Source of the DNA: Erysipelothrix aquatica | Lineage (GTDB): Bacteria; Bacillota_I; Bacilli_A; Erysipelotrichales; Erysipelotrichaceae | NCBI RefSeq assembly: GCF_009828775.2 | Contig: NZ_WTSY02000023.1 | Location: 1 to 33,453 of the forward strand | Direction of reading: 5' to 3' | DNA length: 33,453 nt | Translations under genes and position numbers: made by a program | Part shown: piece after piece, positions 20,205-26,922 of the stretch | Layout of the letters: every line of letters starts with the position of its first letter | How positions within the stretch are numbered: the first letter of the stretch is position 1 | The notes under the pieces: generated by a model | What the model was told of the DNA's origin: nothing | What the model saw: the letters and a program-made list of their open reading frames with translations, nothing else | Databases searched by the model: none

Positions 20205-20229
20205 GTTATACTTTAAATAGGTGATAAAG

Positions 20230-20469
20230 ATGGAATTTTACAAGAAAGACATTGAAGTTGTTTCAATCATAAAAAAAGACGGTACCTATGTTCCGCTAAG
20301 TATATCAACGGGAAATAACCAATATGATATTGATCGTATTGTTGAAGTGCGGCAGGCCAACTCCCAAGTCGGAGGGTCTGGTTTGATGTATCGTATTATA
20401 ATTCAAGACCATGAGCGTCGAATATTTGTAAAACAAAACCGTTGGTGGATTGAAAGCACTAAACCATAG
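20230..20469 (+). CDS. small protein of unknown function
   Basis: The 79-residue product reads as a small beta-rich domain: DIEVVSIIKKDGTYVPLSI, then IVEVRQANS, MYRIIIQDHERRIFVKQNRWWIES. The pattern of alternating strands ending in a 'RWWIE' strand looks like a complete small domain, not a fragment. GGTGAT lies just before ATG 20230; an in-frame GTG at 20221 is a less likely start. It ends 15 bases before the Y-family polymerase start and probably shares its transcript. I do not recognise the family. Confidence 0.7.
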   Translation: MEFYKKDIEVVSIIKKDGTYVPLSISTGNNQYDIDRIVEVRQANSQVGGSGLMYRIIIQDHERRIFVKQNRWWIESTKP

Positions 20470-20484
20470 GAGGAGAAATCAGTG

Positions 20485-21846
20485 ATGGAAAAAGAACGAA
20501 TTATTTTTCATATTGACATAAATCATTGTTTCGCACAAATTGAAGAGATGTTGAATCCAAAGCTTCGTGACGTTCCTATGTGTGTCGGAGGGGATGAGGA
20601 AACTCGAAGTGGGATTGTCCTTGCACGAAATCTGAAAGCGAAGGAATTTGGCGTAAAAACAGCTGAAACACTTCGCGATGCATATCGAAAATGTCCTCAA
20701 TTAATTGTTGTTCCTGCGCAATACCAAGAATATATTTACTATACGACGAAAGTTAAAGAAATCTATAAAAGATACACGAATCTTGTGGAATCCTATGGTT
20801 TGGATGAAGCATGGATTGACGTTACCGATTCATACCATTTATTTGGCAAACCGTATGACTTGGCGTATGAAATGCAGCGACGAGTTTTGGATGAATATGG
20901 ATTAACGGTTTCAGTTGGCGTGAGTTGGAATAAAGTTTTTGCGAAACTAGGGAGTGATCTTATAAAACCTTCGGGGATGGTGATAATCACAAAATATAAC
21001 TACAAGGAGATTGTCTGGCCATTACCTGTTGGCGATTTACTCTTTATTGGAAATAAAACTATACCAAAGCTTCATGAAATTGGAATTTATACCATCCGAG
21101 ATTTAGCTCAGACACAGCGTGATGTGTTGTATCAACGTTTTGGTTTAAAAGGGCTAGAGATGTGGCACTATGCAAATGGTGACGATACTGGAACGGTTGA
21201 GATGAATGGATATGTTGCGCCGCCGAAAAGTATTGGGAATAGCACGACACCACCCCACGACATTAACTCCCTACGTGAAGCTGAAATTATCTTGCAACGC
21301 CTTTGTGAGAGTGTGGCATCGCGCCTTCGTGATGAAAAAATGAAAGGACTTGTCATTGCGATTGCACCAAGAGACGTAAATTTGAGGAGTTTTACACGCC
21401 AACGTAAAGTCATGCAACCAACTAATGTCTCGTCTGAAATACTGCGTATTGCCATGGACTTGTTGGAGGAGAATTATGATTTTTCAGTTTTACCTTTACG
21501 CTCAATTGGTGTCTATGTGAGCAAGCTGGTTGATGATACGTCAATTCCACAACAAATAAACTTGTTTGAAACAGTGGATAGTGATGCAACGCGATCCTTG
21601 ACAGTGGATAAGACGATTGACGCTTTGCGGGATAAATTTGGCTTTCATGTTGTGAAACGCGCATCGTCGCTTCTTAATAAAGATATCGAGAATTTTGATG
21701 CTAAAAACAGCAATTCTGTCTTTCCGGGAAGAAAAAAAGATTACAACTTAGACACTGATAATTTACAGAACAATATCCTTCGCAAAAAAGATAAGTATGA
21801 TCAAAAAAGCCGTGTAGATTTTATCAGAGGGAAAGGGGAGTATTAA
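20485..21846 (+). CDS. dinB: Y-family DNA polymerase (DinB/Pol IV-like)
   Basis: This is a translesion polymerase. The 453-residue protein has the first metal Asp in HIDINHCFAQIEE (Asp11, with Phe16 at the steric-gate position), the second acidic pair in YGLDEAWIDVT (Asp107, Glu108), SVGVSWNKVFAKLGSDLIKP and a little-finger domain. The usual second Asp of 'DxD' near the N-terminus is Asn13. QQINLFE near residue 355 fits the sliding-clamp binding motif. About 90 further residues form a charged tail. AGGAGGAG precedes both GTG 20482 and ATG 20485; either may start. No LexA-type box was seen upstream. Confidence 0.9.
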   Translation: MEKERIIFHIDINHCFAQIEEMLNPKLRDVPMCVGGDEETRSGIVLARNLKAKEFGVKTAETLRDAYRKCPQLIVVPAQYQEYIYYTTKVKEIYKRYTNLVESYGLDEAWIDVTDSYHLFGKPYDLAYEMQRRVLDEYGLTVSVGVSWNKVFAKLGSDLIKPSGMVIITKYNYKEIVWPLPVGDLLFIGNKTIPKLHEIGIYTIRDLAQTQRDVLYQRFGLKGLEMWHYANGDDTGTVEMNGYVAPPKSIGNSTTPPHDINSLREAEIILQRLCESVASRLRDEKMKGLVIAIAPRDVNLRSFTRQRKVMQPTNVSSEILRIAMDLLEENYDFSVLPLRSIGVYVSKLVDDTSIPQQINLFETVDSDATRSLTVDKTIDALRDKFGFHVVKRASSLLNKDIENFDAKNSNSVFPGRKKDYNLDTDNLQNNILRKKDKYDQKSRVDFIRGKGEY

Positions 21847-23390: not shown

Positions 23391-23945
<555 letters not shown>

Positions 23946-23971
23946 CATAATCTAACTTTAGGAGGTACGTT

Positions 23972-25954
23972 ATGAGAATAGGACTCTTTACAGATACCTA
24001 TACACCAGATATAAATGGTGTCGTAACATCGATTGTTACATTAAAAGATGCACTTGAACGAGAAGGTCATACTGTATTTATAATTACAAACCAGCCGTCT
24101 ATTGCATCAACAAGTTATGAAAATAATGTCTTAAGATTGCCAGGTGTTGAACTCAAGTTCTTGTATGGTTATGTTCTCAGCAGTCCAATTCATATTCAGG
24201 CACAAGCAGTTATTGAAGAAATGGAATTGGATGTCATTCATGTTCACTCGGAATTCGGGGTCGGGATGTTTGCTCGCATCATTGCGCGAAATCTACGTTT
24301 ACCTCTTGTTTCGACATATCATACAACCTATGAAGACTATACCCACTATGTGAACCTGTTGGGCTTGAAGTCGGTGGACCATTTGTCTCGGATTGCTGTA
24401 GCAAAAATGAGTCGTATGTTTACCAAAACAGCACAAATTATTATTGCACCATCAGAGAAAACTAAAAAAATGCTTTTGGGTTATGACATCAAAAAAGAAA
24501 TTGCTGTTATTCCAACAGGACTCGACTTGGAACGTTTTGATAAACGTGATGATGAAGCTGTTAAAGCCATTCGCAGTACGTACGCGCTGCAAGGGATTCC
24601 GTTATTCGTTTACATTGGGCGTCTTGCTAAAGAAAAAAGTATCGATGTTGTTATACGTAGCTTTAAGGAATTAGTTGTTCGTGAAGGCTGTGATGCACGT
24701 TTAATGATAGTTGGGGCCGGACCTTCCGATGATGATTTGAAAGAACAAGCTAAAGACTTAGGGATTCAAGATAACGTTATTTTTGTTGGACGAGTGCCGT
24801 CAGAAGAAGTCGTCAACTACTATCATGTTGCCGATGCCTTCATTTCCGCATCATTGACGGAAACACAAGGATTAACTTATATTGAGGCACTTGCATGTGG
24901 ACTGTGTGTGTTTGCGCGACCTGACCGTCCATTAGATGGTATTATCGTTGATGACGAAACCGGATACCTGTTTGAAGATGCCACAACATTTGCTGATAAA
25001 GCAGAAGCGTTTATCAAAGCATCTGAGCAAGAGCATGAGCGAATCCGTACGAATGCGTTAATGAAAGCAAGTACGTTTGACAGTAAACTCTTTGCTGAGA
25101 ACATGCTTGCAGTTTACCGCCGTGCTGGCGATATGTACCATGGACGATACAATGTCGTTGGTGTTGAAGAGCGCAGCGATGGTCAAAGTGAAATTACAAT
25201 TGAATCTAAAGGAAACACAGAAACACTACTTATTGATGAATTCATTCAAGAACGCCGTGAAATTAAAGAAGGTGATACATTGTCACGTCTCGAAATAAAT
25301 GAAATGGAAGATGATCAACAAATATACGAAGCCTATCAAATTGCGCTTCAGCGGATTGGACTTCGGGATTATACATCCTATGAAATGGCGGATTATCTAC
25401 GCTCTAAGTTCGATCTAAATGAAACACAGATTGAAATTGTTGTTGATTTGCTCGTTAAACGACGCTTTATCGATGATGAGCGATACTTCCGTGATAAAAT
25501 TGATTACCACCGTGAACAAAATCGTGGAAATTATCGAATCTTTGAAGATCTACAGCGCCGTGGTTTTGCGAGCGATAAAATAACAGAAGCACTTGAAAGT
25601 GAAGACCAAGATCTTTATATAGAACGAGGTATCGAACGTGCAAATGCCTATTTGAATACCTTAAAAGATGGATCGCATCGTCAACGCGTCGATAAGGCAA
25701 GCCAACACTTATTGCGGCAAGGTTATGACTACAACGTCATTAAAGAAATTATGAATCGCATTGATGATTTCTACGGTGAGGACGAAGAAATGAGTAGTTT
25801 GCGTCTCGTTATTGACAAGGCGTGGTCACGATACTCAAAACGCTATGATACCGAACGCGAAATAAAGAATCATGTTGTGAAACATGCGCTATCAAAAGGA
25901 TATGATTATGATCTTGTATCCCGAGTAATGGAGGAAAGAAATAATGAAAATTAA
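23972..25954 (+). CDS. fusion: GT4 glycosyltransferase (diacylglycerol-glucosyltransferase-like) + RecX
   Basis: One 660-residue frame encodes two usually unrelated proteins. Residues 1-388 are a GT-B/GT4 enzyme: LFTDTYTPDINGVVTSI at the N-terminus, STYHTTYEDYTHY (114-126), the donor-site VYIGRLAKEKSID (213-225) and the E-x7-E pair Glu297/Glu305. This style fits 1,2-diacylglycerol 3-glucosyltransferases for glycolipid and lipoteichoic-acid anchors. Residues 393-660 are a whole RecX-like protein: a small beta N-domain (ITIESKGNTETLLIDEF), then three-helix repeats including ALQRIGLRDYTSYEMADYL and RRFIDDERY (497-505). RecX modulates RecA. AGGAGGT precedes the ATG and no internal ribosome site is evident at the junction. 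The end overlaps yhaM by 11 bases. Confidence 0.88.
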   Translation: MRIGLFTDTYTPDINGVVTSIVTLKDALEREGHTVFIITNQPSIASTSYENNVLRLPGVELKFLYGYVLSSPIHIQAQAVIEEMELDVIHVHSEFGVGMFARIIARNLRLPLVSTYHTTYEDYTHYVNLLGLKSVDHLSRIAVAKMSRMFTKTAQIIIAPSEKTKKMLLGYDIKKEIAVIPTGLDLERFDKRDDEAVKAIRSTYALQGIPLFVYIGRLAKEKSIDVVIRSFKELVVREGCDARLMIVGAGPSDDDLKEQAKDLGIQDNVIFVGRVPSEEVVNYYHVADAFISASLTETQGLTYIEALACGLCVFARPDRPLDGIIVDDETGYLFEDATTFADKAEAFIKASEQEHERIRTNALMKASTFDSKLFAENMLAVYRRAGDMYHGRYNVVGVEERSDGQSEITIESKGNTETLLIDEFIQERREIKEGDTLSRLEINEMEDDQQIYEAYQIALQRIGLRDYTSYEMADYLRSKFDLNETQIEIVVDLLVKRRFIDDERYFRDKIDYHREQNRGNYRIFEDLQRRGFASDKITEALESEDQDLYIERGIERANAYLNTLKDGSHRQRVDKASQHLLRQGYDYNVIKEIMNRIDDFYGEDEEMSSLRLVIDKAWSRYSKRYDTEREIKNHVVKHALSKGYDYDLVSRVMEERNNEN

Positions 25955-26882
25955 AGAATTACAAAATGGACAAAAGTTCGAAGGTCCACTCTTGGTTGGA
26001 CGGTTTGTACGTGGAGTAACCCAAAGTGGTGCGCCATATTTGTCAATTACCTTCCAGGATAACTCGGGTGAAATTGAAGGAAAGGTTTGGGATTTGAAAC
26101 CTGAAATTGAAGCAATGGTTCAAGTCGGCCTTATCCTTGAAGTTAAAGGTGATGTAAATCAATACCGTCAGGCGTTGCAAATGCGTGTTCACACTCTTGA
26201 ATTTAAAGATCAAAGCCAATATGCGTTGGATGACTACGTGAGCGCAAGTACCTATGACTTATCATTCTTAAAAACTGAAATTGAATCATTTGTAACCGCG
26301 ATTGAAGATCCAATCATTAAAGAGCTTGTAGTTGCAAACCTTGAAGCAGTAGGTGATCAATTCTATCAATATCCAGCCGCAACGCGAAATCATCACGATT
26401 TTGTTGGTGGTCTTGCAACACACGTTTATGGTATGGCTAAGGCAGCAAATGCAATTTGTGACTTGTATCCACTTTATAATCGTGATTTGCTCATCGCGGG
26501 TGTTATTTTGCACGACATGGGTAAAATTGAAGAGTATACAGCGCCAATGCTTAGTGAGTATTCTGTAACAGGACGACTTCTCGGTCACATATCAATTATG
26601 CATGCTAACTTTACGGCAATTGCCGAACGGATCGGTCACGCTGATAAAGAACAAACATTGATTCTACGTCATATGATTTTGTCACACCATGGCCAAATGG
26701 AATACGGTTCACCAGTGATGCCGATGATTAAAGAAGCAGAAATGCTTAATATCATTGATAATCTCGATGCACGTACCAACATGTTTGAGAAATTCTATGA
26801 TGATCTTCCTGAGGGCGAATTCAGTCCACGGATGTTTGCTCTAGATAATCGAAATTTCTACAAAGCAAAGGGAATTAAATAA
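25944..26882 (+). CDS. yhaM: 3'-5' exoribonuclease, YhaM family (OB-fold + HD domain)
   Basis: The 312-residue protein has an N-terminal OB-fold (PYLSITFQDNSGEIEGKVWD, residues 28-47) and an HD phosphohydrolase domain with HHDFVGGLATHV (near 148) and the HD pair in VILHDMGKIEEY (near 192). This two-domain order is typical of YhaM/Cbf1 exoribonucleases that trim RNA 3' ends. GGAGG lies inside the end of the preceding fusion gene and the two frames overlap by 11 bases, so it is coupled to the GT4-RecX gene. A strong terminator follows. Confidence 0.9.
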   Translation: MKIKELQNGQKFEGPLLVGRFVRGVTQSGAPYLSITFQDNSGEIEGKVWDLKPEIEAMVQVGLILEVKGDVNQYRQALQMRVHTLEFKDQSQYALDDYVSASTYDLSFLKTEIESFVTAIEDPIIKELVVANLEAVGDQFYQYPAATRNHHDFVGGLATHVYGMAKAANAICDLYPLYNRDLLIAGVILHDMGKIEEYTAPMLSEYSVTGRLLGHISIMHANFTAIAERIGHADKEQTLILRHMILSHHGQMEYGSPVMPMIKEAEMLNIIDNLDARTNMFEKFYDDLPEGEFSPRMFALDNRNFYKAKGIK

Positions 26883-26887
26883 TTTGA

Positions 26888-26922
26888 GAACACTTATTGT
26901 TATACGATAAGTGTTCTTTTTT
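26888..26922 (+). terminator. yhaM terminator
   Basis: GAACACTTAT and ATAAGTGTTC form a perfect 10-bp stem followed by TTTTTT. Confidence 0.9.

Follow-up and report, generated by a model that had tools for sequence, protein, structure and literature searches.

RecX is usually a small, separate protein that modulates RecA. The Bacillus subtilis representative, RecX/YfhG, comprises 264 amino acids (PMC3527212), and structures 3d5l and 3e3v are available for comparison with proteins of the Firmicutes type. The second activity of concern here has its closest described relatives among the alpha-monoglucosyl-diacylglycerol synthases (alMGS, NF049988), which include BgsB of Enterococcus and ALmgs of Acholeplasma, and which have as a pathway partner the diglucosyl-diacylglycerol synthase of BgsA/IagA type (NF053513). 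Here, a locus of Erysipelothrix aquatica was examined in which a glycosyltransferase (GT) resembling the former kind and a RecX are encoded by one gene; the stretch of DNA analysed, which is referred to as the window, is 33,453 nucleotides long. Both halves belong to known families. No description of a GT-RecX architecture was found in the open-access literature, although it may have been noticed earlier elsewhere, and the combination, its order-wide fixation, its origin from an operon and the later separations of its halves are undescribed in the open-access papers searched.

The fused gene (Table 1) is read in the window as a frame of 660 codons without interruption, the calculated mass of the product being 76.05 kDa. 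The original prediction of a single gene is borne out by a frame that is open throughout and by profile matches to both GT4 and RecX domains; neither a stop nor a frameshift is present near 25140-25160 in the window or in the corresponding record of Erysipelothrix anatis (L036). The upstream neighbour, pyrR, lies outside the transcription unit. The hairpin that separates the two genes, which was not listed by a pattern scan for terminators (weak evidence), suggests that the fused gene begins a transcription unit of its own. A few kilobases further upstream, positions 20221-21846 hold a short gene followed by a gene of 454 amino acids, the predicted product of which resembles a Y-family (ImpB/MucB/UmuC-type) DNA polymerase, so that the two are possibly a YolD-UmuC-like pair. 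On the downstream side, the proposed coupling to yhaM is upheld by the overlap of the two genes and by a Shine-Dalgarno (SD) sequence for yhaM located inside the fused gene. The match of the yhaM product to NF010007, over residues 2-309, does not reach the cut-off of 460 bits, and it is called YhaM-like here. Among 113 fused loci, yhaM was found on the same strand in 105 places, nearly always overlapping. Given the terminator that follows yhaM, the transcription unit is most simply the fused gene plus yhaM.

Table 1. Coordinates of the features of the fused locus, as positions in the window.
Feature	Position	Strand	Evidence or remark
Terminator-like hairpin AAGCCC-ATTAC-GGGCTT, then T-rich	23921..23945	+	Between pyrR and fused gene; read directly
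Shine-Dalgarno AGGAGG of fused gene	23960..23965	+	Predicted anti-SD pairing -11.5 kcal/mol
Fused glycosyltransferase-RecX gene	23972..25954	+	660 aa; single frame, domains, order-wide conservation
GT4 (GT-B fold) lipid glycosyltransferase, residues 1-385 (predicted)	23972..25126	+	Pfam, NCBIfam, homologues, fold
E297-x7-E305 motif of retaining GT4 enzymes	24860..24886	+	Residues read; both >95% conserved, invariant in A1
Junction, residues 371-400; position of lost recX ribosome site	25082..25171	+	AF2 model, constant length, SD test
RecX N-terminal beta-domain, residues 393-438 (predicted)	25148..25285	+	AF2 models; alignment with 3d5l begins at model residue 2
RecX helical part, residues 439-660 (predicted)	25286..25951	+	PF21982, PF21981; AF2 pLDDT 95; Z 16.4 to 3d5l
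Shine-Dalgarno GGAGG of yhaM, within 3' end of fused gene	25930..25934	+	-9.3 kcal/mol
yhaM-like 3'-5' exoribonuclease gene	25944..26882	+	NF010007 329 bits; overlaps fused gene by 11 nt
Intrinsic terminator, 15-bp stem, T tail	26886..26918	+	After yhaM; ends two-gene unit

The GT half exceeds the Pfam cut-offs for PF13439 (104 bits) and PF00534 (117 bits), and its nearest curated family, over residues 1-383, is the alpha-monoglucosyl-diacylglycerol synthase (NF049988). The score of 258 bits does not reach the equivalog cut-off of 400 bits, which is also the case for stand-alone GT relatives (247 and 306 bits), and for this reason the half is called MGS-like as opposed to being filed as a member of NF049988. 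Indeed, since the NCBIfam scores of both halves are below curated cut-offs (258 of 400 bits for the enzyme, 108 of 240 bits for RecX), the exact functions of the enzyme and of RecX are given as predictions; the MGlcDAG synthase and RecX models each match all 58 of the aligned homologues. The E-x7-E motif named in the original prediction is present, and across 100 distinct fused homologues conservation exceeds 95% at each of H117, R217, K222, E297 and E305. A GT-B fold is indicated by structural matches to MshA (Foldseek E down to 6e-23), and also to BshA and PimA. On these grounds the half is predicted to glucosylate diacylglycerol, presumably as a catalytically active enzyme located at the membrane. 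A BgsA-like partner is encoded elsewhere in the genome (G000:C58:2526-3518), its score of 507 bits exceeding the cut-off of 460. An operon link with bgsA was considered as a general feature and rejected, since a BgsA-like gene immediately precedes the fused gene in only 7 of 75 examined relatives. The order bgsA-(GT+recX)-yhaM was seen in L042, L046, L048, L053 and L059, with a 4-nt bgsA overlap in several.

The RecX half exceeds the Pfam cut-off of 26 bits for RecX_HTH3 (PF21981, 53 bits) and RecX_HTH1 (PF21982, 38 bits), which were detected in 44 and 43, respectively, of 44 fused halves. RecX_HTH2 (PF02631) scores 17.8 bits in the fused gene, below the same cut-off, and was matched with E <= 0.001 in 23 of the 44 homologues; the helices of this second three-helix domain are present in the AF2 model, the helical part of which contains four three-helix units. 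The NCBIfam RecX profile matches residues 404-658. Modelled alone, the half has a mean pLDDT of 95.3 and a pTM of 0.80, and it aligns with RecX structure 3d5l over 198 residues (Z 16.4, rmsd 3.3), with 3e3v at Z 14.8 and with 3c1d at Z 11.9, far above the rows for unrelated structures. The RecX start expected near residue 393 coincides with the first residue of the predicted beta-domain, and a mismatch with RecX profiles, which would count against the assignment, does not hold for either profiles or fold. By profile and modelled fold, then, residues 393-660 are a complete RecX of the Firmicutes type. A genome search that included the RecX profile detected no second, stand-alone RecX, in keeping with the original prediction; one RecA is present. 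The fused group retains the positions that are a signature of RecX (L476, L494, D502, G519, L527, G531, G584 and G643), and the half is predicted to modulate RecA filaments.

The original prediction also held that the junction lacks an internal ribosome site and suggested that the linker around residues 380-400 be modelled. In the AF2 model the last helix of the GT half (residues 371-390) passes directly and with high confidence into the first strand of RecX (residues 393-400), with no disordered linker, and the length of the junction is constant in all but one of 100 fused sequences. The best in-frame start at the junction, ATG388, has an SD energy of -1.5, whereas the start of the fused gene itself reaches -11.5 and that of yhaM -9.3. 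Of 100 distinct fused genes, just 7% have at the junction an in-frame start whose SD energy is at least as strong as -5, and a conserved internal recX start at this position was rejected on that basis; for comparison, such sites precede 89% of yhaM starts, and the median SD energy for recX within operons is -6.8. Since the internal site is lost, the junction length constant and the helix continuous with the strand, a single polypeptide is to be expected, i.e. one bifunctional protein of 76 kDa, as had been anticipated from the sequence.

With respect to distribution, the class scan sampled 52 genomes of the order and found the fusion in 49 of them, comprising 33 of 36 genomes in the family of the window (f1) and all 16 in a second family (f2). 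These counts include G049, in which the diverged RecX half required a profile to be found. The search for the same architecture in relatives, which the original prediction recommended, thus finds it across an order of two families. When 316 genomes of this order were searched with the RecX profile, 297 gave a match, and frames of approximately 650-700 amino acids hold nearly all of the RecX matches listed among them, whereas outside the order RecX is found, among the matches listed in the class scan, in frames of approximately 150-330 amino acids. No fusion was seen outside the order in either the class or the phylum sample. In the latter, full-length matches were confined to f1 and f2, and in other families the MGS orthologue is a protein by itself, of approximately 380-450 amino acids, with about 100 MGS-like orthologues outside these two families ending near residue 390-400. 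The nearest named record is that of E. anatis, with 99% identity and a synonymous divergence of approximately 0.25, which marks it as a distinct genome and places the window in Erysipelothrix near that species. Among the other named members with the fusion are E. tonsillarum, E. inopinata, Holdemania and Anaerorhabdus furcosa, and from these records the order is taken to be the Erysipelotrichales. Two genomes of the same family that are listed as 98-99% complete (G236 and G351) yielded no GT, RecX or YhaM candidate, and G577 likewise had no match to the fused profile; these absences would reflect either loss or a problem with the records. MGS-like GTs in frames of approximately 650-780 amino acids were also observed in G061, G102 and G281 (family f8, genus g80) and in L119 and L120. 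The extra half of these proteins is unmatched by the fused profile, and they may be other fusions or tandem GTs.

Two other families of the class (f8 and f19) have GT, recX and yhaM in the same order as separate genes. In these operons recX, as called by its first start, begins inside the GT gene, four of the eight pairs overlapping by 23 nt, and it is always in another frame with respect to the GT gene (overlap modulo 3 equal to 2 in 8/8 pairs). GGAGGT within codons of the GT gene precedes the recX start in several pairs. Adjoining GT and RecX matches occur in further genomes of f8, f19 and f10 (e.g. G322, G294 and G032). When the junction is aligned, the GT tail (..KRALRKYW, then the stop) and the RecX head (..TGKLFI..) of L162 correspond to ..QRAIDTYFGRYVV.. 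in the fused protein, which fits a net change of +2 nt (or -1) at the old GT stop as the step that would have made the fusion. A GT tree that included distant paralogues was discarded for its very long branches. In the tree used instead, one branch sets the fused sequences, all together, apart from the rest, with weak support (81/30), and the operon sequences form a separate clade (97/94); two rival placements of the fused group were not rejected (p-AU 0.25). The RecX tree is noisier, with f2 placed apart at weak support. The trees do not settle the number of events, but one fusion event appears likelier, since the junction is alike, and of the same length, in f1 and f2.

The halves have also come apart again. 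RecX alone, with its own start and followed by yhaM, was found in genera g2 (G037, G634-G636), g225 (G618, G619) and g4 (G511, G519, G524, G545), the latter two of which also contain fused members (G058, G520, G622); recX has therefore later become separate again beside yhaM in at least three genera. A GT half alone (395 aa) is present in G570 (L240, G570:C10), beside which neither RecX nor yhaM was detected, the loss being the reverse of that in g2, g4 and g225. G580 reads as two overlapping genes, and the single frame breaks there and in G395 may be assembly errors. The cases of RecX alone and of GT alone speak for each half being able to work by itself. Purifying selection on both halves is strong: among close pairs for which dS is usable, dN/dS is mostly approximately 0-0.2 in either half, and the RecX half reaches 0.26 in a single distant pair.

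The explanation that is considered probable is that the gene encodes a bifunctional protein in which a half that makes glucosyl-diacylglycerol and a RecX, joined by a fixed operon fusion, work side by side. The N-terminal GT4 half would act as a membrane-surface glucosyltransferase, transferring glucose onto diacylglycerol (the BgsB/alMGS step), with the second sugar added by the separate BgsA-like enzyme, whereas the C-terminal half would be a complete RecX modulating RecA filaments. As for its origin, an ancestor of the order would have had a GT-recX-yhaM operon with overlapping genes and coupled translation, in which a small indel at the end of the GT gene removed the stop and brought GT and recX into one frame, the internal ribosome site of recX decaying thereafter. 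The outcome would be a fixed 1:1 supply of both activities, and RecX would be borne at the surface of the membrane. It is most likely that the halves are independent and the fusion close to neutral, glycolipid synthesis and the pathway of RecA both being plausible settings for them. A neutral fusion fixed in this lineage, as the original prediction put it, hence fits best, except that the lineage proves to be an order of two families and not only Erysipelothrix.

Near-total retention of the fusion across the order nevertheless hints at some benefit, and is the main argument for an alternative, raised also in the original prediction, in which the fusion holds RecX at the membrane beside anionic lipid, where bundles or stores of RecA are likewise found, or in which binding of DNA or RecA by the RecX half tunes the lipid enzyme, such that membrane state and RecA activity would be linked. 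In E. coli, stores and bundles of RecA have been reported at the inner membrane together with anionic phospholipids (PMC6363387), and for a lipid enzyme of Acholeplasma, stimulation both by activator phospholipids and by double-stranded DNA is reported (reference 8 of PMC3083329). However, these links come from other organisms, no interface between the halves is evident (the pTM of the full model is 0.62, as compared with 0.80 for the RecX half alone), and neither half needs the other in those genomes where recX or the GT stands alone. Because of these natural separations, independent function is ranked above coupling, which is regarded as unlikely while deserving consideration. In its most far-reaching form, with RecX tethered to the membrane, the order would control RecA filaments from the surface of a glycolipid enzyme, and lipid state and recombination/SOS would cross-regulate via one polypeptide, which is a rather doubtful proposition.

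An improbable alternative is that the RecX half is no longer a regulator of RecA and now has a structural or regulatory role within the glycosyltransferase. Only seven of its positions are more than 95% conserved in the 100 distinct fused homologues, against 69 in the GT half, and RecX_HTH2 falls below the Pfam cut-off. In Erysipelothrix, moreover, the half (25145-25951) is very acidic (net charge -17, pI 4.9) and several conserved lysines are lost. The median net charge of RecX is -1 in fused halves and +8 and +9 in separate RecX proteins of the class, with a wide range across other fused lineages. A charge shift as a mark of fusion was however rejected: the GT half shifts too, and fused and separate RecX proteins of genus g4 are alike (+7 and +6, and +3 to +7, respectively), from which the shift is judged to be bound to lineage and not caused by fusion. 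Acidity thus does not follow fusion. The fold and the signature positions of RecX are kept, the fused copy is the only RecX detected beside RecA, and those genera in which the halves separated kept recX beside yhaM as opposed to the GT.

It is very improbable that the cell still obtains a free RecX, whether from an internal start or through proteolysis, with the fusion existing only at the level of the gene. A weak internal candidate is present at TTG437 (SD energy -6.1), SD-like sites are somewhat commoner at residues 433-463 (30% of genes), and proteolysis is compatible with the sequence. A start at 437, however, would lose the confidently folded beta-domain, and against a separate product more generally stand the scarcity of ribosome sites at the junction and the modelled absence of a disordered linker there. 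An assembly or sequencing artefact is ruled out with next to no doubt, since nothing at the fused locus supports it and 100 distinct homologues from independent assemblies, the complete chromosomes L037 and L040 included, read through the junction region without a stop or frameshift, while the breaks in G395 and G580 are examples of either errors of this kind or genuine splits in a few other assemblies.

A whole order appears to depend on a RecX covalently joined to a predicted membrane-lipid enzyme. Together, the relatives with the pre-fusion operon and the genera in which recX is again separate provide an evolutionary series for asking whether a fusion of unrelated pathways is neutral or useful, and the fused order provides a clean system for asking if control of RecA can move to the membrane. 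There is also a practical aspect, in that a single name on the fused gene can cause annotation to miss either recX or the lipid enzyme.

Set against the known systems, the fused protein is like alMGS in having it as the best NCBIfam match, in its GT4 catalytic residues, in the existence of stand-alone orthologues in other families of the class, and in the BgsA-like partner in the genome. It differs in scoring below the curated cut-off and in carrying a 270-residue RecX at the C terminus, its activity being a prediction from sequence. The BgsA/IagA-type synthase is comparable as the pathway partner, and as the occasional upstream neighbour, yet is itself unfused in the loci seen. With Firmicutes RecX proteins, as exemplified by RecX/YfhG, the C-terminal half shares the beta-domain and helical repeats, the signature positions, a similar size (269 aa) and the position of sole RecX detected beside one RecA; unlike them it is not separate, is without a ribosome site of its own and, in Erysipelothrix, is very acidic. 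The overlapping operon of f8 and f19 has the same three genes in the same order with overlapping ends, and is distinguished by a recX that is separate, in another frame and, in several cases, preceded by a clear Shine-Dalgarno sequence of its own.
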